DNA of 56,337 nucleotides from positions 1 to 56,337 of IMG/VR virus record IMGVR_UViG_3300033993_002821; one strand, 5' to 3'. Source of the stretch: a virus. The position numbers and the translations under genes were made by a program. This document shows positions 39,460-54,149 of the stretch, in pieces. The notes under the pieces are model-generated. The model did not search any database. It saw nothing but the letters and a program-made list of their open reading frames with translations, and had not been told where the DNA came from. The first letter of the stretch is position 1; the number at the start of each line of letters is the position of its first letter.

Positions 39460-39668
39460 TGAAAGACCGAATCTTCTTTGCCTGTGTGTTCGCCTATGCG
39501 CTCTGCGCGGTCCTGACATTCGGCCATGCCGCTGCGAACACGGAATGCACTCGGGACAGGGTTCAAGAGTGCACTGAGGAGGCCGCGCTCAATGGCGCTT
39601 TGGCAGGCCTTGTCTGGCCGCTCTACTGGTCTTGGGTCGCGTTCGATGCGGATGGGCAGCATGGGTGA
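39459..39668 (+). CDS. 69-residue exported or membrane protein
   Basis: Starts MKDRIFFACVFAYALCAVLT, a signal peptide or membrane span, ending near HAAANTECTRD; a second hydrophobic stretch (ALAGLVWPLYWSWVAF) follows. Two Cys in ECTRDRVQEC may pair. Function unknown. Confidence 0.5.
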   Translation: MKDRIFFACVFAYALCAVLTFGHAAANTECTRDRVQECTEEAALNGALAGLVWPLYWSWVAFDADGQHG

Positions 39669-40578
39669 AGGCAGCGCAATCGAGTGGACCGACCACACCT
39701 TCAACCCGTGGACTGGCTGCACCAAGGTCAGCCCGGCCTGCGACCACTGCTATGCCGAAGGCTGGGCAAAGCGCAGCGGACATGTTGAATGGGGGCCGCA
39801 CGCCCCGCGCCGCCGCACGGCAGCCGCAACCTGGCAGGCCCCGCTGAAATGGAATCTGGCGGCGTCACAGGCCGGGCGTGCGCGGGTGTTCTGCGCCAGC
39901 CTTGCGGATGTGTTCGACAATCACCGCTCGATCCTGCCCGAATGGCGTGCGGAGCTGTGGCAGCTGATCGCCGCCACCCCGCACCTGGACTGGCTGCTGC
40001 TGACCAAGCGGCCCCAGAACATCGCGAAGATGCTGCCCCCGACATGGGGCAACGGCTGGCCGAACGTCTGGCTGGGCACGACCGTCGAGAACCAGACCGA
40101 GGCAGACCGGCGGATTCCGCACCTGCTGGCCACCCCTGCGGCGGTGCGGTTCCTCAGCGCGGAACCGCTGCTGGGGCCGGTGGCGCTGGACGCGATCCTG
40201 ACGCCGGACATGGGCATCTACGCTTTGACAGGCATAAGGTCAGACGGCAGAGGTCCTTCGGGGTTCAGTCGCGGCCCCCGTATTGACTGGGTGATCTGCG
40301 GCGGCGAAAGCGGCCCCGGTGCCCGGCCCATGCACCCTGACTGGGCACGGTCCCTGCGCGACCAGTGCGCAAGGGACCGCGTGCCGTTCTTTTTCAAGCA
40401 ACACGGAAAATGGCTGCATGAAAGCCAAGACCCGTATGGGTATTGGGATTGGTCCTACGCCGAAGATCGCGGGATTTTGCACTCATGGCCTGACAAAACC
40501 GACTCAATACCGCTTCGCGGTAAATCCGCCGGTCGCCTTCTGGACGGTCGCGAATGGAACGAGGTGCCAAATGGCTGA
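39661..40578 (+). CDS. DUF5131 (phage Gp37/Gp68) family protein
   Basis: 305 residues from ATG 39661. Conserved features: IEWTDHTFNPWTGCTKVSPA-CDHCYAE with Cys spaced C-x6-C-x2-C, VFCASLADVFDNH, LDWLLLTKRPQNI, NVWLGTTVENQTEADRRIP, RFLSAEPLLG, and WVICGGESGPGARPM. The three-Cys motif suggests an iron-sulfur, radical-SAM-like site, as proposed for this family; the reaction is unknown. The gene is followed at once by a DUF4326 gene. Confidence 0.82.
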   Translation: MGEGSAIEWTDHTFNPWTGCTKVSPACDHCYAEGWAKRSGHVEWGPHAPRRRTAAATWQAPLKWNLAASQAGRARVFCASLADVFDNHRSILPEWRAELWQLIAATPHLDWLLLTKRPQNIAKMLPPTWGNGWPNVWLGTTVENQTEADRRIPHLLATPAAVRFLSAEPLLGPVALDAILTPDMGIYALTGIRSDGRGPSGFSRGPRIDWVICGGESGPGARPMHPDWARSLRDQCARDRVPFFFKQHGKWLHESQDPYGYWDWSYAEDRGILHSWPDKTDSIPLRGKSAGRLLDGREWNEVPNG

Positions 40579-43300: not shown

Positions 43301-45478
43301 GTGAACGACATGACCTTCGACGGGCCTTTGCCCCTGATCATCGACAGCTTTGCCGGGGGCGGCGGGGCCTCTACCGGCATCGAACTCGCCCTTGGCCGGT
43401 CGCCCGACGTGGCGATCAACCACAACGCCGCCGCCCTGGCCCTGCACGCGGCCAACCACCCCGAGACGCTGCACCTGGACAGCAACATCTGGGATGTGGA
43501 GCCGCGCGCCGTCACCAAGGGCCGCCGGGTCGGCCTGCTCTGGGCCTCGCCCGATTGCAAGCACTTCTCCAAGGCCAAGGGCGGCGCGCCGCGCGACCGT
43601 AACATCCGGGATCTGGCGTGGGTCGTGGTGCGCTGGGCGGAAGAGGTGAAGCCCGACGTGATCCTGATGGAGAATGTCGAGGAATTCCAGACCTGGGGAC
43701 CGATCGACAACGAAGGCCAGCCGATCAGGGAATTCGCCGGGCAGACCTACGAGCTTTGGGTCAGGCGTCTTCGGGCCGCCGGATACCGGGTGCAATGGCG
43801 CGAGCTGCGCGCCTGCGATTACGGCGCGCCCACGATCCGCAACCGCTACTTCCTTGTGGCGCGGCGCGATGGGCGGCCCATCGTCTGGCCGAAGCCCACG
43901 CATGGCGATCCGAAATCGGACGCGGTGAAGAAGGGCCGGCTCAAGCCGTGGCGCACCGCCGCCGAATGCATCGACTGGTCGGTGCCCTGCCCGTCGATCT
44001 TCGACAGTGCCGAACAGATCAGGTCCACGCTGGGGCTGGCGGCAAAGCGCCCGCTGGCCGACAACACGCTGGCCCGGATCGCGCGCGGGATGAAGCGCTA
44101 TGTGATCGAGGCCGAGCGCCCCTTTCTGGTCAACCTCACGCACGGCGGGCGCACCGAGGATGTGGCCGAGCCGTTCAAGACGATCACCGGGGCGCACCGG
44201 GGCGAAAAGGCGCTGGTGGCCCCGTCGATCACGCGGTTCAACGGCGGGGCCACGGGCAGCGCGATGGATGATCCGATGCCGACGGTGACCGCGAATAGCT
44301 GGATCAGGAAGCCGGGCGGGGCCGCCCCGCTTGGCCTATTGGCCCCGTCGCTGGTCAGCGTGGCGCATGGCGACAGCGGCGGGCGGCTGGAATACCCGCT
44401 GACAGACCCCTACGGCGCGGTGACCGCGGGGGGCATCACCCACGCGCTGGTGGCCCCGGTCCTGACCTATGCCCAGCAGGGCGGGGCTACCCGGTCGCCG
44501 CAAAGCCCGCTGCACACCGTCACCGCCTCGGCCAAGGATCAGAACGCGGTGATCCTGCCGACCCTGATCCAGACCGGCTATGGCGAGGCTCCGGGCCAGG
44601 CCCCCCGCGCGCTGGATATCGGCCAGCCCCTTGGTACGGTCGTGGCGGGCGGGGTGAAGCACGCGCTGATTGCCACCACGATCATGGGCTGCGGCGGGCG
44701 GGCGGCGCAAAGCCGTCCGCGCGGGATCGACGAGCCGACCGCCACCGTCACCGCCAAGGCCGATGCCTGCGCCGCCGTCGCCTTTCTTGCCCAGCACAAC
44801 ACCGGAGTTACCGGGCACGACGCGCGCGAGCCGCTGTCAACCGTCACCGGGGCCGGGTCGCACCAGCAGCCGGTCGCGGCCTTCATTGCCCGGCATTTCG
44901 GGGCCAGCATCGGACATTCCGCCGGGGCACCGCTTGGAAACGTGACGGCGGACGGGGGCGGCAAGAGCAGCCCGGTCGCGGCCTTTTTCGCCAAATACTA
45001 CGGTACCGGCGACGGCGCGCGGCAGGACGAGCCGATGCACACCGTCACCACGAACGACCGCTTCGGCCATATGCAGGCCGTGCTGGCCTGCCCGCCCTTC
45101 GGCCCCGAGCATGAGGCCCGCGCCCGCGAGGTGGCCGAATTCCTGCGCGCGCACGACGCCTGGCACGGCGGCGAGTTCGTGACGCTGACCATCGACGGCG
45201 GCACCTTTGTGGTGGTTGACATCGGGATGCGCATGCTGACGCCGCGCGAGCTGTTCCGGGCGCAGGGCTTTCCCGAGGATTACGTGATCGAAGGGGTCTG
45301 GGAAGAGCGGGGCGGCGACTGGCACTGGCGGCCCTTCGCCAAGGATGTGCAGGTCGGATGCTGCGGCAACTCGGTGTGCCCGCCGCTGGTCGACGAGCTG
45401 GTGCGCGCCAACTGCGGGCATCTGGTCACCGACGCCGCGCGGGCCGTGCCTGCGGGGCAGGAGGCCGGGCATGCCTAA
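43301..45478 (+). CDS. DNA cytosine-C5 methyltransferase with repeat-array recognition region
   Basis: 725 residues from GTG 43301 (AAGGAGT upstream). MTase motifs: IIDSFAGGGGASTGIELALG (I), LLWASPDCKHFSKAKGG (IV region, with PDC instead of the usual PCQ), VILMENVEEFQ (VI), and DYGAPTIRNRYFLVARR (VIII). Residues about 285-610 are a series of degenerate repeats with P-x-x-TVT-A-G-G-x-x-HALVAP. Motifs IX-X follow (DIGMRMLTPRELFRAQGFPE, VGCCGNSVCPPLVDELV). It probably protects phage DNA from host restriction. Confidence 0.87.
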   Translation: MNDMTFDGPLPLIIDSFAGGGGASTGIELALGRSPDVAINHNAAALALHAANHPETLHLDSNIWDVEPRAVTKGRRVGLLWASPDCKHFSKAKGGAPRDRNIRDLAWVVVRWAEEVKPDVILMENVEEFQTWGPIDNEGQPIREFAGQTYELWVRRLRAAGYRVQWRELRACDYGAPTIRNRYFLVARRDGRPIVWPKPTHGDPKSDAVKKGRLKPWRTAAECIDWSVPCPSIFDSAEQIRSTLGLAAKRPLADNTLARIARGMKRYVIEAERPFLVNLTHGGRTEDVAEPFKTITGAHRGEKALVAPSITRFNGGATGSAMDDPMPTVTANSWIRKPGGAAPLGLLAPSLVSVAHGDSGGRLEYPLTDPYGAVTAGGITHALVAPVLTYAQQGGATRSPQSPLHTVTASAKDQNAVILPTLIQTGYGEAPGQAPRALDIGQPLGTVVAGGVKHALIATTIMGCGGRAAQSRPRGIDEPTATVTAKADACAAVAFLAQHNTGVTGHDAREPLSTVTGAGSHQQPVAAFIARHFGASIGHSAGAPLGNVTADGGGKSSPVAAFFAKYYGTGDGARQDEPMHTVTTNDRFGHMQAVLACPPFGPEHEARAREVAEFLRAHDAWHGGEFVTLTIDGGTFVVVDIGMRMLTPRELFRAQGFPEDYVIEGVWEERGGDWHWRPFAKDVQVGCCGNSVCPPLVDELVRANCGHLVTDAARAVPAGQEAGHA

Positions 45479-45836
45479 ACTGACCTGGCAAAGCGCCTTT
45501 TCCTGCTGCCCGCCGATCCGCGACGGCGGCACCATGGATTCCTGCCTGCTGGGCGCGGTCGAGGTGGGGCGGGTCCAGAAGATCGGCAACCGGGGGGCGT
45601 GGATATGCTGGCTGCCCGGTGCCAGCGGCCAAAGCTACGCGGGGTGGAAGGACGCCAAGGATTGGCCTGCCGCCCGCGCCGCCCTTGCCGCCCGCGTATC
45701 CCTGTTTCTGGACGCCGCCGGGCTTGACGCCCGCGACAGCGCGGCAAGGCCGCCCGCGCCCGCAATCCCGCCCCTTGGCACCACGCCCACGGGCGCTGCA
45801 ACCCAACCTGATCTGTTTGAAGAGGCTCGCCCGTGA
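45471..45836 (+). CDS. Hypothetical protein between two methylases
   Basis: 121 residues. Contains FSCCPPIRDGGTMDSCLLGA, GRVQKIGNRGAWICWLPGAS and a Pro-rich, disordered end. Similar to short phage proteins found beside methylases; no activity known. Overlaps both neighbours. Confidence 0.5.
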   Translation: MPKLTWQSAFSCCPPIRDGGTMDSCLLGAVEVGRVQKIGNRGAWICWLPGASGQSYAGWKDAKDWPAARAALAARVSLFLDAAGLDARDSAARPPAPAIPPLGTTPTGAATQPDLFEEARP

Positions 45837-46456
45837 CCCAGAACACATCCTCCGCCGTCATGGCCCAGCGCCGCGAACCCAAAGACAGCCTGGACGATTT
45901 TCCGACCCCGCCCTGGGCCACCCGCGCGCTGTGCGAATTTCTGCTTGAGCATGGCCTGATCTGGCCCGGCATGTCGGTGCGGGAACCGGCGGCAAACCGG
46001 GGCCACATGGCCCGCGCGCTGGGCGAATACTTTTCGCGCGTGATCGCCTCGGACGTGGCCGATTATGGGGCGGGCTTTCCGATCGACGATTTCCTGATGC
46101 CCGGCAATCTGGAAACCGCGCATTGGACGATCACCAACCCGCCGTTCCGGCTGGCCGAAGAATTTCTGTTCCGGGCGTTGCAGACGACTCGCCATGGTGT
46201 GGCCCTGCTGGGCCGCACGTCTTTCCTTGAGGGGATCGGCCGCCATGAACGGGTCTTCAGTCAGGCCGCGCCGGATCACGTCCTACAGTTTTCGGAAAGG
46301 GTGGTGATGCACAAGGCCAGGCTGTCAAAAGACGGCAGCACGGCCACCGCCTATTGCTGGCTGATCTGGCGGAAGGACGGCAACAACGCGGGAAGCACAC
46401 TGCACTGGACCGGCGTCTGCCGCAGCAGGCTTGAGCGGCCCGGCGACTATCCCTGA
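45833..46456 (+). CDS. DNA adenine methylase-like protein
   Basis: 207 residues from GTG 45833 (GTGA overlap). Features: DSLDDFPTPPWATRALCEFL, VREPAANRGHMARAL (SAM-site-like), VIASDVADYG and WTITNPPFRLAEEFLFRAL with the NPPF motif of N6-adenine methylases. A clear G-x-G is not seen, so binding mode is less certain. Last gene of the rightward cluster; converges on the lipoprotein gene. Confidence 0.72.
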   Translation: MTQNTSSAVMAQRREPKDSLDDFPTPPWATRALCEFLLEHGLIWPGMSVREPAANRGHMARALGEYFSRVIASDVADYGAGFPIDDFLMPGNLETAHWTITNPPFRLAEEFLFRALQTTRHGVALLGRTSFLEGIGRHERVFSQAAPDHVLQFSERVVMHKARLSKDGSTATAYCWLIWRKDGNNAGSTLHWTGVCRSRLERPGDYP

Positions 46457-48607: not shown

Positions 48608-49408
48608 ATGACGAAGGAAAATTTCCAACGGCCCGCCGGGTCTGTGATAACCGTCGCGTTGCGGCGGGCTGACGAACTTGTGCCCTATGGGCGCAACAGC
48701 CGGGTTCACAGCGACGAGGCTGTTGCCAGGCTGGTTCGGATCATCGGCGAGATGGGCTGGACATCGCCCATCCTGACCGACGCGGAAAGCATCGTTGCCG
48801 GGCACAAGCGCCGCCTTGCGGCCCTGTCAATCTATGGCGCGGGCGGGACAATCCGCTTGCCGGGCGGCCAGGTGCTGCCCCCCGGCTTGGTGCCGGTGAT
48901 CGATGTGACCGGCTGGACCGAGGCGCAGCGCCGCGCCTATGTGATTGCGGACAACCAGACCACGCTGGAAAGCGAATGGGACGGCGATCTGCTGCGGCTG
49001 GAACTGTCCTGGCTGTCGGAGCAAGACGGGTTCGATATGGACCTGACGGGCTTTGACGGCGATGCGCTGGCCGCCGCGCTTGCCGTTTCGGACGGCAGCC
49101 CGGATCAGGGACAGCCGGATGATCCGCTGCGGGTCAGCCTTGCCGACCGCTTCGGTGTGCCGCCGTTTTCGGTGCTGTCAGCGCGCGATGGCTGGTGGCA
49201 GGATCGCAAGCGCGCCTGGTTGCGGCTTGGGATCATGTCGGAGCTGGGCCGGGGTGCGGCGACAATCAACGACGCGGCCCCCGGCGGGTCGGCGCGGCCC
49301 CTTGACCGCCAGCGGGCGGCAAAGGCCTCACCTGGCGGAAGTCCGAGACCGTCGGCAAACTATGGGCAGTCCAGGGCACGCGGCGATGGCCGTGGCCGGG
49401 AGGTCTGA
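48608..49408 (+). CDS. ParB-like (ParB/sulfiredoxin fold) protein
   Basis: 266 residues. N-terminal ParB-like domain: RRADELVPYGRNSRVHSDEA, RLVRIIGEMGWTSPILTDAE, IVAGHKRRLAALSIYG, VPVIDVTGWTEAQRRAYVIA, DNQTTLESEWD. The C-terminal half has a GVPPFSVLSARDGWWQDRKR segment common in phage ParB-like proteins and a disordered tail. In phages such proteins accompany DNA methylases; partition is unlikely as no ParA is present. Nuclease or modification-partner role is inferred. Confidence 0.82.
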   Translation: MTKENFQRPAGSVITVALRRADELVPYGRNSRVHSDEAVARLVRIIGEMGWTSPILTDAESIVAGHKRRLAALSIYGAGGTIRLPGGQVLPPGLVPVIDVTGWTEAQRRAYVIADNQTTLESEWDGDLLRLELSWLSEQDGFDMDLTGFDGDALAAALAVSDGSPDQGQPDDPLRVSLADRFGVPPFSVLSARDGWWQDRKRAWLRLGIMSELGRGAATINDAAPGGSARPLDRQRAAKASPGGSPRPSANYGQSRARGDGRGREV

Positions 49409-49411
49409 CCG

Positions 49412-50404
49412 ATGCCGAAGACTCAGGGCACAACCTTTGACAACCAGGCCGGGCTGACGGCCATTCAGAAACAGGGCCGACGCCGGAAGGCAAATGCGGA
49501 ACCTGCCGGGGGCGGGGGCGGGGGATGGGCGGCGCACAACCGCAAACAGGCGGAGCGGCGCGCGGCGCTGCAGCGCGACATCCTGCCGGGTGGCCTGACC
49601 TTTCATCCGATTGAGAGCTTCGACGGGGCCGGTCGCGCGATTACGGGCACATCGGTCTTTGATCCGGTGCTGTGCGAACTGGCCTATCGGTGGTTCTGCC
49701 CGCCGGGCGGGCTGGTGCTTGACCCGTTCGCGGGCGGATCGGTGCGCGGGATTGTGGCGAGCAAGCTGGGGCGCGGGTATGTCGGTCTAGATCTGCGATC
49801 TGAGCAGATCGAGGCAAACCGGCAGCAGGCAGATGCCATTTGCACTGATGGGCCCTTTCCCGTCTGGCATGTGGGCGACAGCCGCGACATTGGCGTGATT
49901 GCCGCCGGGGTGCAGGCGGATTTCCTGTTTTCCTGCCCGCCTTATGCCAACCTTGAAGTCTATTCGGACGATCCGGCAGACCTGTCAACCATGGCCTATC
50001 CGGCCTTCCGGGAAGCATATTTCGCGGTGGTCGCCGGAGCGGCAAAGCTGCTGAGGCCCGACCGCTTCGCCTGCTTTGTGGTCGGCGAGGTCAGGGGCAA
50101 GGACGGTGCCTATCTGGGTTTCGTGCCGGATACGGTTGAGGCATTCCGCCGGGCCGGGCTGACCTACTACGGCGAGGCGATCCTTGTGACGGCGGCGGGT
50201 TCGCTGCCGATCCGGGCAGGCAAGCAGTTCGAGGTGGCGCGCAAGTTCGGCAAGACCCACCAGAATGTGCTGCTGTTCGTGAAGGGGGACGCGCGGGCGG
50301 CGACGGCCGCCGTCGGCCCGGTGGAAGCGGGACCCTTCGATGACGAAACGACCGATGACGGTTTGATCAACCCATGGGGCGACGAGGACGATGCAGACCC
50401 TTGA
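49412..50404 (+). CDS. Site-specific DNA methyltransferase (amino-MTase)
   Basis: 330 residues, starting 4 bases after the ParB-like stop. SAM motif LVLDPFAGGSVRGIVASKLG, then YVGLDLRSEQIEAN, and the catalytic FLFSCPPYANLEVYSDD (CPPY, in place of DPPY/SPPY). HQNVLLFVKGD near the end is frequent in phage methylases of this type. Target base (adenine-N6 or cytosine-N4) cannot be told. ParB-like partner upstream; PP-loop gene downstream overlaps by 14 bases. Confidence 0.84.
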   Translation: MPKTQGTTFDNQAGLTAIQKQGRRRKANAEPAGGGGGGWAAHNRKQAERRAALQRDILPGGLTFHPIESFDGAGRAITGTSVFDPVLCELAYRWFCPPGGLVLDPFAGGSVRGIVASKLGRGYVGLDLRSEQIEANRQQADAICTDGPFPVWHVGDSRDIGVIAAGVQADFLFSCPPYANLEVYSDDPADLSTMAYPAFREAYFAVVAGAAKLLRPDRFACFVVGEVRGKDGAYLGFVPDTVEAFRRAGLTYYGEAILVTAAGSLPIRAGKQFEVARKFGKTHQNVLLFVKGDARAATAAVGPVEAGPFDDETTDDGLINPWGDEDDADP

Positions 50405-51416
50405 GCAATCTGCCGCGAATGGGGCGCTGGCCGACGTGGCGGCGCGCCTGTTTGCCTGGGGGTCGCAATGGCCTTTGCCCGAATTGGCGGACGTGCCCCC
50501 GCTTTGGCAGGGCTTCGTTGGCAGGGTCGGGTTCTTCTGCGGTGTGGACGCCAAAGCAACGGGGGCGGGCTATCCCGCCCCCTTGTCCCGGCGGCTTGAT
50601 CAGCGCCGCGTGGTCGTTCTGTTTTCTGGCGGAAAAGACGGTCTGGCGACGGCGCTCAAACTTCGATCTGACGGGCTTGTTCCCGTCCTTCTGCATGTGC
50701 GCGGGATAAACGGGGCGGCCTATGCCCACGAGGCGCAGGCAGCCCGGCGGGTGGCCGATGTTGCTGGCTTTGCGTTCCGCGAATTGCGGGTCGTCCTGCG
50801 GGGGAAGTCAGATCACACTGAGAACCCCGCCAAAAATCTGGTGCTGGCTTGTCTGGGCGCGTCTCTTGCCGTGCAATGGGGGGCCGGCACCGTTGCCCTT
50901 GGACTGCTGTCCGAGGACACCGAAAGCACAAACCCGCGGTGCGGCCTGTCTGACAACATCACGGTGTCGGTGTTCGGGTTTGCAGCGATTGAGGCGATGA
51001 CGCCGGGCCTTCGCGTGATCCCGGCAACGATGCCGAACGACAGTGCCTCGATTGCGCGGGTCTGGCACGATTGCCCGGCGGCTTTGCCCGAAATATCGTC
51101 TTGCATGGCGGGCGCGCGATTCAAGGCAAAGCTGCACCGGACGAACAACACGAAATTCCGGGCGGGCCTGCTGCCCGGACGGTGCGGCAGTTGCTACAAA
51201 TGCGCGCTGGAATCCATCACCTTGGCGGCGCTTGAGGGGCGGGTGCTGCCATCCGAATGGGCTGCCCATTGCGTGGAGAAACTGCGTCGGGGTGCACAGA
51301 TCGTTTCCGGGTCGGCGGCCCTGCCGTCGGAGGCAAAGGCTTTCGACATGTTCATGTCTGATGCGGTGCCCTGGCGGGCGGCGCTGGGCCTTACGGCAGC
51401 CGATAGCGCGACTTGA
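50391..51416 (+). CDS. QueC-like PP-loop ATPase
   Basis: 341 residues. PP-loop motif VVLFSGGKDGLATALKL (residues 79-84 SGGKDG; QueC has SGGxDS). Further on: VLLHVRGINGAAYAHEAQAA, TVALGLLSEDTESTNPRCGL, NDSASIARVWHDCPAAL, and Cys at 238, 265, 268 and 271 (GRCGSCYKC), resembling the zinc site of QueC. These enzymes adenylate an acid or amide for base or tRNA modification. No QueD/QueE or DpdA is seen. Its place with methylases suggests DNA modification. Confidence 0.72.
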   Translation: MQTLEQSAANGALADVAARLFAWGSQWPLPELADVPPLWQGFVGRVGFFCGVDAKATGAGYPAPLSRRLDQRRVVVLFSGGKDGLATALKLRSDGLVPVLLHVRGINGAAYAHEAQAARRVADVAGFAFRELRVVLRGKSDHTENPAKNLVLACLGASLAVQWGAGTVALGLLSEDTESTNPRCGLSDNITVSVFGFAAIEAMTPGLRVIPATMPNDSASIARVWHDCPAALPEISSCMAGARFKAKLHRTNNTKFRAGLLPGRCGSCYKCALESITLAALEGRVLPSEWAAHCVEKLRRGAQIVSGSAALPSEAKAFDMFMSDAVPWRAALGLTAADSAT

Positions 51417-51618
51417 GCGCGTCAATTCCGCTGCGGATCAGCGCCTCGGGGTCTTTGCCGATACTGCGGTAGAAGCGCGGGTTAAGGCCCGCCTCATGTG
51501 CCCGGACGATTGCGGCGGCATGATCGCCGAGGTCGGGAAAGCGGGCTGCGATGCGGAGTGCCAAGGTCCAATCGCCTGACGCGGCGGCAGCCTTAAGCTT
51601 TGAAATTTTCGTTTCCAT
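51391..51618 (-). CDS. Small leftward gene under an operator, between late genes
   Basis: 75 residues from ATG 51618. METKISKLKAAAASGDWTLA, then LRIAARFPDLGDHAAAIVRA and HEAGLNPRFYRSIGKDPEAL: two helical repeats, basic end. Related short proteins occur alone or in pairs in alphaproteobacterial prophages. It overlaps the end of the QueC-like gene on the other strand by 26 bases. An operator copy lies 22 bases upstream, so repressor control is likely. Confidence 0.6.
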   Translation of the reverse strand: METKISKLKAAAASGDWTLALRIAARFPDLGDHAAAIVRAHEAGLNPRFYRSIGKDPEALIRSGIDALKSRYRLP

Positions 51619-51639
51619 CCAGACACCTATCGCTCTTCT

Positions 51640-51656
51640 ATTGGATTTAATCCAGC
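51640..51656. promoter_or_regulatory. Operator-like palindrome between 51618 and the terminase
   Basis: ATTGGATTTAATCCAGC, 15 of 17 matches to the perfect site with T at the centre. Divergent: 22 bases before the minus-strand gene and 36 bases before the small-terminase ATG. Confidence 0.78.
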
Positions 51657-51691
51657 TTGGGTCAGGTGCCAAGCCAGCACGCGGCGAGGAC

Positions 51692-52204
51692 ATGGCAGAA
51701 AAACCGGAAGGCCAGGCCCCAACAGGCGAGATCACCACCGAACAGGCCGGGCGGCTGCTTGAGCTGACCGCAGAGCGCGTGCGGCAGCTGATCAAATCGG
51801 GCCATATCGAAAAGACGCGGCACGGGCATACGACGCTGGTGTCGGCGGTGCGCGGGTACATCCGGTTCCTGAAGGAGGCGGCAAGCGAGCGGACGCAGAA
51901 CGCATCCGAAAACCGGGTCCGCGATGCGCGGGCGCGGGAAATCGAACTGCGGCTGGCTCGGGACTCGCGCGACCTGATCCCGCAGGAAGAGGCGCTGCTG
52001 GCCATGACGATGCTGACCACCTTTGTGGCGCAGCAGTTCCAGGGCCTGCCCGCCCGGATCACGCGGGACTTGGCCCTGCGCAGGACAATTGAGGCCGAGC
52101 TCCATGGCGCGCAAGAAACCATCGCCGCAGCACTCGGAAAACTGTCGGGCTTTGTTCAGGACGGCGGCGATCCTCCTGAAACCCTCGCCAAAGGCTTATC
52201 CTGA
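51692..52204 (+). CDS. Terminase small subunit (Nu1-like)
   Basis: 170 residues from ATG 51692. N-terminal winged helix like lambda Nu1: GEITTEQAGRLLELTAERVR, QLIKSGHIEKTRHGHTTLVS. A helical C-terminal part (DARAREIELRLARDSRDLIP) provides oligomerisation. It recognises the packaging site and recruits the large subunit. It overlaps the large-subunit start by about 100 bases. Confidence 0.83.
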   Translation: MAEKPEGQAPTGEITTEQAGRLLELTAERVRQLIKSGHIEKTRHGHTTLVSAVRGYIRFLKEAASERTQNASENRVRDARAREIELRLARDSRDLIPQEEALLAMTMLTTFVAQQFQGLPARITRDLALRRTIEAELHGAQETIAAALGKLSGFVQDGGDPPETLAKGLS

Positions 52205-54149
52205 CGAATGGGGCGCGGCGAACCGGACCTATCCGGCGACGACCGGATGGCCGGGGCCGCGCAACCCGAACCTGACGGGGTATATGATTCCCTTCGGTCG
52301 GGCGATCCATGACGGGCGCTACAAGCGCGTCGTTGCGGTGACGGCGGCACAGTCCGGCAAGACCGAGACCTTTCTGGACATCATCGGGTCCCGGCTGGAC
52401 CAGCGGCCCGCGCCGATCCTTTACGTCGGCCCGTCGCAGGATTTTGTCACCGACCAGTTTGAGCCGCGCCTGATGGGCCTGCTGGACGAGGCCCCGACGC
52501 TGGCCGCCAAGGTCGCGCGGGGGAAGGCCAGCAAGAAGACGCAGAAATGGATTGCCGGTGTGAAGGTCCGCCTCGGTTTTGCCGGGTCGTCGACCAGCCT
52601 GAAATCCGACAGCTTTTCCCTTGGTCTGGTGGACGAGTACGACGAAATGACCGCCAATATCCGAGGCCAGGGCGACCCCTTGGGACTGGCGGATGCGCGC
52701 GGCGAAACCTATGCGGATTTCGTCATCGCCGTTACCTCCACCCCGTCGCGCGGGATGCTTGATACGGAGATTGATCCTGTCAGCGGGCTGGAGTTCTGGA
52801 AGCCCGGCGATCTTGAGACGGTCGAAAGCCCGATCTGGCGGCTGTGGCAGGCGGGGACGCGGCATCACTTTGCCTGGCCCTGCCCGCATTGCGAGGCGCA
52901 TTTCGTGCCGATGCGCAAGCATCTGAAATGGCCGAAGGGGTCAACGCCGTCGCAGGCGCTGCGGTCGGCCTATGTCGAGTGCCCGCAGTGCGGCGGCGTG
53001 ATCGAGGACTATCACAAGCCCGCCATGATCGCGGGCGGGGTGCAGATCGCGCCGGGGCAGACGATTGACGACGCGCGCAACTGCGTGAACGAGCCGGATG
53101 TGACGACCTGGTCTTGCTGGACAAGCGGGCTTTGCAGCCCCTTTGTGACCTTCGGCCAGCGGGCGCAGAAGCTGCTGGATGCGATGGCGACCGGCGAGGC
53201 CGATAAGGTTCAGACCGTCGTCAACGCATCCTTCGGAGAGTTGCACAGCCTGGTATCAGCCGACGAGCGCCCGACTTTTGAGGCGGTTCGCGACCGGGCT
53301 GCGGGAAACCCGTATCGGGCGGGAGACGTCCCTGCAGAGGCGTCCCGGTTTGTCATGGCCGTGGACGTGCAGAAGTTCTCGCTGTTCTGGACAGTGCGGG
53401 CCTTTGGCGCGCGCGGCACCAGCTGGAACGTCGCGCATGGGCAGCTTTTCGGGCCAACCGACCAGGATCAGGTCTGGGATGATCTGGCCGACCTGATGCT
53501 GTCCCCGATCGGCGGCGTGCATGTCGAAAAGGTGGGCGTCGATTCCGGGTTCCGGCCCGGCAAAAAAGACGCGGTGCCGGAACACAAGGTCTATGAGTTC
53601 GCGCGCCGCTACCCTTGGCTGGTGATCCCGACCAAGGGCAAGGACGTGCAGAACCCGCCCTACAGGATCAGCCAGATTGAGGTGAAACCCGACGGGCGCA
53701 AAACGGTCTATTCGATCCGGCTGGCCTGGCTGTCGTCGGACTTCTTCAAAAGCCTGTTCCTGTCGCGGCTGGCCCTGCCGGCCGGGCAGCTTGGGGCATT
53801 CTATCCGCATTCGGATGTCGATGACGATTACTGCAAGCAGCTTGTCAGCGAGGTGCGGGTCATCGAGGACGGCAAGCCAAAATGGGTGCAGACGTCTAAG
53901 GACAACCACTTTCTGGACTGCGAAGCGATTTGCGAGGCCATGGGCTATGCGCTCAACGTCCAGCGGATTCCGGATATAAAGGTGCTGCATGACGGGCCGG
54001 CCCGAGACGGGCCGGGGCCGGACCCCGGCCTGCAGTATGGCGACGCAGAGGATGCCCCACTGCCGCAGCCTGTGCCGCAAGGCAATTCGGACGCGGCACC
54101 GCGCACCAGGGCGCGCTTTTCCGGGCTTGGCGCGCGGCTGAACCGGTAG
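52104..54149 (+). CDS. Terminase large subunit, GpA family
   Basis: 681 residues from ATG 52104 (longer frame begins 52023). ATPase: VVAVTAAQSGKTETFLDIIG (Walker A like), FSLGLVDEYDEM (Walker B), TSTPSRG (motif III). A zinc ribbon (WPCPHCEAHF / VECPQCGGVI) is typical of lambda gpA. Nuclease region: VMAVDVQKFSLFWTV, VGVDSGFRPGKKDAV, and DNHFLDCEAICEAMG. It pumps DNA into proheads and cuts it. GpA-type terminases usually go with lambda-type capsid genes, as here. Confidence 0.93.
   Translation: MARKKPSPQHSENCRALFRTAAILLKPSPKAYPDEWGAANRTYPATTGWPGPRNPNLTGYMIPFGRAIHDGRYKRVVAVTAAQSGKTETFLDIIGSRLDQRPAPILYVGPSQDFVTDQFEPRLMGLLDEAPTLAAKVARGKASKKTQKWIAGVKVRLGFAGSSTSLKSDSFSLGLVDEYDEMTANIRGQGDPLGLADARGETYADFVIAVTSTPSRGMLDTEIDPVSGLEFWKPGDLETVESPIWRLWQAGTRHHFAWPCPHCEAHFVPMRKHLKWPKGSTPSQALRSAYVECPQCGGVIEDYHKPAMIAGGVQIAPGQTIDDARNCVNEPDVTTWSCWTSGLCSPFVTFGQRAQKLLDAMATGEADKVQTVVNASFGELHSLVSADERPTFEAVRDRAAGNPYRAGDVPAEASRFVMAVDVQKFSLFWTVRAFGARGTSWNVAHGQLFGPTDQDQVWDDLADLMLSPIGGVHVEKVGVDSGFRPGKKDAVPEHKVYEFARRYPWLVIPTKGKDVQNPPYRISQIEVKPDGRKTVYSIRLAWLSSDFFKSLFLSRLALPAGQLGAFYPHSDVDDDYCKQLVSEVRVIEDGKPKWVQTSKDNHFLDCEAICEAMGYALNVQRIPDIKVLHDGPARDGPGPDPGLQYGDAEDAPLPQPVPQGNSDAAPRTRARFSGLGARLNR

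Follow-up and report, generated by a model that had tools for sequence, protein, structure and literature searches.

What is a QueC-like PP-loop enzyme doing between a DNA methyltransferase and the packaging genes of a virus? The question is raised by a complete virus record of 56,337 bases (hereafter the window), in which the ORFs for a ParB-like protein, a methyltransferase (MTase) and a PP-loop protein, all in the same direction, occupy positions 48608-51416. The original prediction saw in them a tightly packed trio placed before the packaging genes and possibly devoted to a form of DNA hypermodification outside the deazaguanine pathways.

Organization of the locus

The ORF gaps and the terminase matches bear out the description of the trio. 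The MTase gene (49412..50404, + strand, 330 aa) starts 3 bases past the stop of the ParB-like gene (48608..49408, + strand, 266 aa), and it is overlapped by 14 bases by the PP-loop gene (50391..51416, + strand, 341 aa). The terminase small subunit gene (TerS; 51551..52204, + strand; PHROG 57, E 1e-11) comes next and forms the right-hand border of the slot that will be discussed below. The longest ORF for the large subunit (TerL; 52023..54149, + strand) matches Pfam GpA_ATPase (E 7e-46) and GpA_nuclease (E 3e-39); its real start is probably downstream of 52023.

The ParB-like protein was recognized by PHROG 15396 (E 2.7e-45), PHROG 498 (E 5.7e-40) and a ParB HMM, with a ParB/Srx-like domain encoded at about 48668-49264 (+ strand); despite the strength of the PHROG 15396 match, Pfam ParB_N did not match it. 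The second protein resembles DNA methyltransferases of the N6A/N4C class (Pfam N6_N4_Mtase, E 3e-8; PHROG 12517, E 9e-94). Its motifs are in the order X - I - IV, motif I being FAGGSVRG (residues 106-113, 49727..49750, + strand) and motif IV CPPY (residues 175-178, 49934..49945, + strand). PHROG 498, which consists of ParB-MTase fusions, matches both genes (E 5.7e-40 and 1.2e-68, respectively); together they are therefore a split form of this known phage family.

The PP-loop protein has the fold of QueC but is not QueC

Sequence comparisons with the PP-loop protein gave a mixed picture. The match to the QueC Pfam was weak (E 0.002, below cut-off), phmmer with the single sequence found nothing significant in the PDB, and the best profile match among solved sequences was TtuA (E 1e-9), over the PP-loop part only. 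An AlphaFold2 model built on a 16-sequence alignment had a pLDDT of 90 and was used for Foldseek searches. The top PDB matches were QueC (1.4e-6, 2pg3) and Cap9 (2e-5), with TtuA ranking after them (1.4e-3); the comparison with QueC and TtuA, which the original prediction had suggested, thus comes out on the side of QueC. The model aligned with 3bl5 at a TM(target) of 0.72, and in the viral structure library its nearest matches were phage QueC proteins.

The features conserved in the family alignment are an SGGKDS loop, NPxKN, the Asp of YxxSD, an SC pair and RCGSCYKC. The loop of the window protein, SGGKDG (residues 79-84, 50625..50642, + strand), deviates from the usual SGGKDS by its last residue. 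The NPAKN motif (residues 145-149, 50823..50837, + strand) is the counterpart of VPxRN in QueC; P146, K148 and N149 are invariant in 17/17 sequences. The QueC-like Cys cluster that had been noticed in the window protein is a family trait, since C238, C265, C268 and C271 are all invariant. The four residues, arranged as C238...C265-GS-C268-YK-C271 (51102..51203, + strand), form a presumed metal (zinc) site.

The QueC signature has been defined experimentally, with the Tyr of YxQxHxxE and the Arg of VPxRN being essential (PMC13329287). The PP-loop family shares with QueC (PF06508) the fold, the SGGxDS loop, P-x-K/R-N, a conserved Asp near the place of YPDC and the SC plus CxxCxxC metal site. It differs from it on several counts. 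YxQxHxxE is replaced by GxNxxxPxE, of which only the Asn and the Glu are conserved; VPxRN is replaced in 17/17 sequences by N/H/V-P-x-K-N, which lacks the essential Arg; of YPDC only the Asp (D188) is invariant; and the zinc motif of QueC, C(x)8CxxCxxC, has C(x)25-27CxxCxxC as its counterpart (C(x)26 in the window). The residues of the CDG pocket are absent, there is an N-terminal extension, and the partner is a DNA MTase. Given that the loop and the general layout of the metal site persist, but that the family has another Cys spacing and has lost YxQxHxxE, YPDC and the VPxRN Arg, we consider the protein to be of QueC fold without being QueC. It likely retains ATP-dependent activation of a carboxylate, on another substrate than that of QueC.

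The PP-loop gene is conserved together with ParB and MTase genes

A scan of IMG/VR, with an alignment of the window protein and of its relative from Staphylococcus phage Alsa_1 as query, returned 22 PP-loop loci, 16 of them distinct. Alsa_1 was the only annotated phage with a relative (tblastn, single sequence). No relative was found in plasmids with the single sequence, nor in a first scan of genome contigs, and an alignment-based scan on one short motif retrieved one bacterial MAG contig only among about 85,000 bacterial and archaeal genomes. As judged by this one-motif scan, the family is rare and almost confined to viruses.

The PP-loop gene directly adjoins ParB and MTase genes at 13 of the 16 distinct loci, the exceptions being L096, L103 and L107. 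This adjacency is not circular, because the loci were collected with the PP-loop sequence alone. The genes are thus co-conserved, and independence of one another, which would have spoken against the original prediction, is not what the loci display. SET-domain and radical-SAM genes were also seen as neighbours at some loci, too few to make them core parts.

A slot for exchangeable partners between the MTase and the terminase

Three further scans raised the number of MTase relatives to 268 sequences (loci and window, redundant), and the slot between MTase and terminase was inspected for 192 non-redundant MTases. It contained an S-adenosylmethionine decarboxylase (SAMDC) for 51 of them, a PLP-dependent fold-type II enzyme (PF00291) for 29, a minimal PLP protein (cl19) for 25 and the PP-loop protein alone for 13. 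PP-loop and cl19 genes were found together for nine MTases, and Alsa_1 combines PLP and PP-loop genes. No partner was present for 60 MTases, and the remaining four are truncated by the end of their contig. SAMDC never co-occurred with PP-loop, PLP or cl19 genes among the 192. The PP-loop gene is not always a simple alternative to the others, since it accompanies cl19 in nine MTase lineages and PLP in Alsa_1. Neighbouring genes of the cassette are separated by median gaps of -4 to -20 bases, the start codon of one overlapping or adjoining the stop codon of the one before. A SAM synthetase gene lies directly upstream in six PP-loop and seven SAMDC loci.

The cl19 protein (about 170 aa, encoded beside PP-loop genes) looked like a novel family, with no Pfam match and a weak profile comparison with the PLP family (28%), until its AlphaFold2 model was found to match fold-type II PLP enzymes at 1e-5. 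The PAPS-reductase gene of phage ZS04 belongs to another PP-loop family, PF01507.

Among named phages, the slot is of the SAMDC type in Croceibacter phage P2559S and of the PLP type in Erythrobacter phages R6L and ZS04 and in Microcystis phage Mae-JY30. The SAMDC of P2559S, SpeD, is encoded directly after its ParB-MTase and was demonstrated by complementation to be a genuine AdoMetDC (PMC9992855). For some other SpeD homologues of phages, the substrate is arginine or ornithine and not SAM (PMC10407285). Most phage SAMDC genes are found in cyanophages, apparently without a ParB-MTase.

Exchange of the slot content is visible between related genomes. The window and Mae-JY30 are 66% identical for ParB, 74% for the MTase and 59% for TerL, and have a PP-loop gene and a PLP gene, respectively, in the slot. 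Similarly, the order metK-ParB-MT-SAMDC-TerS of locus L126 differs from the metK-ParB-MT-PP-TerS order of L108 and L141 by the exchange of a single gene; metK, ParB-MTase and TerS are 59-71% identical between the SAMDC and PP-loop versions, as compared via L117, a locus with the same gene order as L126 and nearly identical flanks. Fifteen changes of the PP label are needed along the MTase tree, and well-supported branches force at least four (PP alone). The MTase itself can be interrupted: PLP domains (in Pam4 and ZS04) and PP-loop genes (in L094 and L099) share a single site of insertion, which lies past motif I and before motif IV, at position 68-71 of the model. Given the co-conservation and the swaps, the three genes of the window very probably constitute one functional unit.

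MTase motif I varies with the class of partner

Letters 4 and 7 of motif I were found to track the partner class. Position 7 is Phe in 49 of the 51 MTases accompanied by a SAMDC, and a basic residue in 131 of the 137 MTases without it (truncated loci left out). One of the two SAMDC exceptions is L117, where the SAMDC lacks 14 residues including the catalytic Ser; this deletion, seen in a single contig, may be an assembly error. Sign tests of motif I versus SAMDC, corrected for ancestry, gave p = 1 and p = 0.25, with few independent events and hence low power. If position 7 contacts the cofactor, a basic residue that might meet the carboxylate would have been lost in the MTases for which decarboxylated SAM is expected, in line with the role proposed below for the SAM arm.

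A tentative mechanism

A family of PP-loop genes, co-conserved with ParB-MTases and exchanged with other genes at a single slot and a single point of insertion, can be read directly from the sequences. From there we infer which chemistry the partners might have in common. SAMDC acts on the carboxylate of the amino-acid arm of SAM, the substrates of PLP enzymes are alpha-amino acids and those of QueC-fold ligases are carboxylates. With these substrates, and with a SAM synthetase gene upstream, the 3-amino-3-carboxypropyl arm of SAM is the simplest common denominator. For fold-type II PLP enzymes, activity on SAM is not an established reaction.

We tentatively propose, as a reading that is quite possible without reaching the probable, a modular phage cassette for DNA modification in which the ParB-MTase transfers a SAM arm whose head is tailored by the slot enzyme. 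The ParB-like and CPPY proteins would act together as a DNA alkyltransferase that evolved from an N6-adenine/N4-cytosine methyltransferase; SAM, or a derivative of it, would donate a group from its 3-amino-3-carboxypropyl arm, and the acceptor would be the exocyclic amino group of a base. Before or after transfer, the slot enzyme would tailor the amino-acid head of the arm: the carboxylate would be removed in the SAM decarboxylase version, the alpha carbon would be the point of attack in the PLP versions and, in the phage studied here, the QueC-fold ligase would adenylate the carboxylate, which would end as an amide or as a conjugate with an amine. The product would shield the phage DNA from restriction. 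As 60 of the 192 MTases have no partner, their basic activity may be plain methylation.

The genes point to DNA hypermodification, probably with a group more elaborate than methyl, and the locus, which is real and recurrent, is probably an undescribed variant of SAM-derived phage DNA modification. The original prediction of a route other than deazaguanine, in which the ATPase activates a group, remains the best-supported reading in its general form. It placed that group on a base; the exchange of the PP-loop gene for other partners points instead to the SAM side chain, and not to a pre-existing base substituent, as the target. A wider generalization, namely that ParB-MTases are the side-chain transferases of a widespread hypermodification class, each with a swappable tailoring enzyme (SAM decarboxylase giving aminopropyl, PLP enzyme, or QueC-fold ligase giving amide), and that the AdoMetDC genes beside them serve DNA modification rather than polyamine synthesis, is more doubtful than the cassette itself.

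Alternative explanations

The MTase might merely methylate, the PP-loop, PLP and SAMDC genes being independent accessory genes lodged in a tolerant slot before the terminase. This would account for the partnerless MTases and for the unrelated small ORFs that are often present before TerS. It fits poorly with the fact that few kinds of enzymes fill the slot, repeatedly and mostly exclusively, with overlapping or abutting start and stop codons, and it predicts neither the interruption of the MTase by PLP and PP-loop sequences nor the variation of motif I with the partner. We regard it as unlikely.

A carboxymethyl route, in which the MTase uses carboxy-SAM from a host CmoA and generates N6-carboxymethyl-adenine or N4-carboxymethyl-cytosine, which the PP-loop ligase then amidates, is a further alternative; its adenine product would be the N6-carbamoylmethyl base made by Mom of phage Mu. 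The scheme is a direct analogue of CmoX/CmoY (see below), and the reaction of QueC joins a carboxylate and ammonia (PMC13329287). However, a search with TIGR00740 found no CmoA-like gene in the 26 PP-loop virus records (the window and 25 related ones), no N6A/N4C carboxymethyltransferase associated with CmoA has been found (PMC12783734), and the SAMDC, PLP and SAM synthetase genes at the same positions are left unexplained. These points make the carboxymethyl route rather improbable.

Slightly less credible still is an action of the partners on the SAM pool, by conversion of SAM to decarboxylated SAM or to another derivative, so that host defences depending on SAM are starved or inhibited, with the MTase as a separate anti-restriction tool. 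Phage SAM lyases are known anti-defence tools and P2559S does possess a genuine AdoMetDC, but the SAM synthetase genes directly upstream in six PP-loop and seven SAMDC loci suggest the opposite of depletion, and the way in which the MTase is fused or split speaks for direct coupling.

Thiolation of a base or of the backbone in the manner of TtuA or DndC, with an iron-sulfur centre held by the Cys cluster, is very unlikely: TtuA is the best profile match among solved sequences, but the structure is far closer to QueC, the four-Cys C(x)26CxxCxxC arrangement resembles the zinc site of QueC and not the three-Cys cluster of LarE, and no sulfur-donor gene was seen. Finally, hardly any credence can be given to insertion of a deazaguanine into DNA, the PP-loop protein being a QueC that makes preQ0 or an amide from host CDG, because, in spite of the QueC fold and the phage QueC proteins among its structural neighbours, the canonical residues are not conserved and, as the original prediction had it for the window, neither QueD (PF01242) nor TGT/DpdA-type (PF01702) genes were found in the 26 records, some of which are fragments and where a divergent DpdA could escape detection.

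Relation to known systems

For the SAM-arm cassette proposed here, the closest characterized logic is, by analogy, that of CmoA/CmoX/CmoY from Synechococcus phage S-B43, where carboxy-SAM supplies the carboxymethyl group that a C5-MTase homologue installs, and glycine is added by a ligase of the asparagine-synthetase type (PMC12783734). In both cases an MTase homologue and an ATP-dependent amide ligase would elaborate a SAM-derived group, with ParB domains nearby; the authors of that study noted that ParB domains, to which they assigned no function, are frequent, and saw no counterparts of the N6A/N4C type (PMC12783734). The differences are that CmoX is a C5-cytosine enzyme using carboxy-SAM whereas the MTase of the window is of the N6A/N4C type and without CmoA, and that the ligase is an asparagine synthetase homologue in CmoY but has the QueC fold in the window.

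Cap9 of type IV CBASS, second to QueC in the structural search, and QatC are QueC-fold ligases that modify proteins by joining a carboxylate to an amine. In contrast to these systems, no cyclase or Qat partner genes were seen with the PP-loop gene of the window, and the canonical QueC pocket, kept by Cap9, is lost in its family.

Relative to the fusions of PHROG 498, genes 1 and 2 of the window are the split form, and a PP-loop, PLP or SAMDC partner joins the unit. Our literature searches, which did not extend to preprints and subscription journals, found neither a description of a functional partner of this family nor a publication that associates ParB-MTases with QueC-like, PLP or SAM decarboxylase partners; priority is therefore unproven. 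The phage class 1b AdoMetDC (SpeD), which fills the partner slot in 51 of the 192 relatives and is absent from that of the window, was earlier read as part of polyamine metabolism (PMC9992855). If the proposed scheme is correct, SAM decarboxylases acquire a new role beside ParB-MTases, and a common, unexplained ParB-MTase family gains a testable chemistry. Phages would then alter the decoration of their DNA by single-gene swaps in the race against restriction, and enzymes moving non-methyl groups from natural SAM derivatives would become tools for modifying DNA. The scheme can be tested in sequenced phages with named hosts, i.e. P2559S, R6L, ZS04, Mae-JY30 and Alsa_1, which between them carry the SAMDC, PLP and PLP plus PP-loop versions of the slot.

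Partner genes in the relatives

In Staphylococcus phage Alsa_1 (L001), the PP-loop gene (L001:7541-8561) appears to be broken, its PP-loop-bearing N-terminal part being absent or split, and the PLP-enzyme gene behind it is a full-length open frame. When compared with its L126 counterpart (L126:7487-7771), the SAMDC (S-adenosylmethionine decarboxylase) gene of the phage locus L117 (L117:7277-7519) was found to lack, in frame, 14 residues, the catalytic Ser among them; it adjoins an MTase of the kind found elsewhere with the PP-loop gene. The flanks of the two loci are 96-100% identical, and L117 is possibly a recombinant or an assembly error.

Some of the partnerless ParB-MTases are followed by a second, small MTase-like gene (L013:1026-1649, L033:2073-2699 and L007:5141-5782), which is a candidate for a further partner.

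Other neighbouring genes

Radical-SAM-like genes lie directly 3' of the PP-loop gene in L098 (6822-7613), L103 (6372-7523) and L107 (4536-5654), the last two having no adjoining ParB-MTase. SET-domain genes (protein lysine methyltransferase-like) are found closely 3' of PP-loop or MTase genes at L079:2371-2976, L092:3769-4374 and L094:7439-7990.

Many relatives carry, between the MTase and TerS (terminase small subunit) genes, a small conserved minus-strand protein, cl5. In the window, a minus-strand reading frame (51391-52122) resembles cl5 in its C-terminal part and overlaps the TerS gene. Two additional DNA methyltransferases are encoded upstream: one (43301-45478) is a C5 enzyme of 725 aa with a repeat-like middle and an SPDC motif, and the other (45833-46456) belongs to PHROG 799. 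A DUF5131 protein (phage Gp37/Gp68 family) is encoded at 39526-40578.
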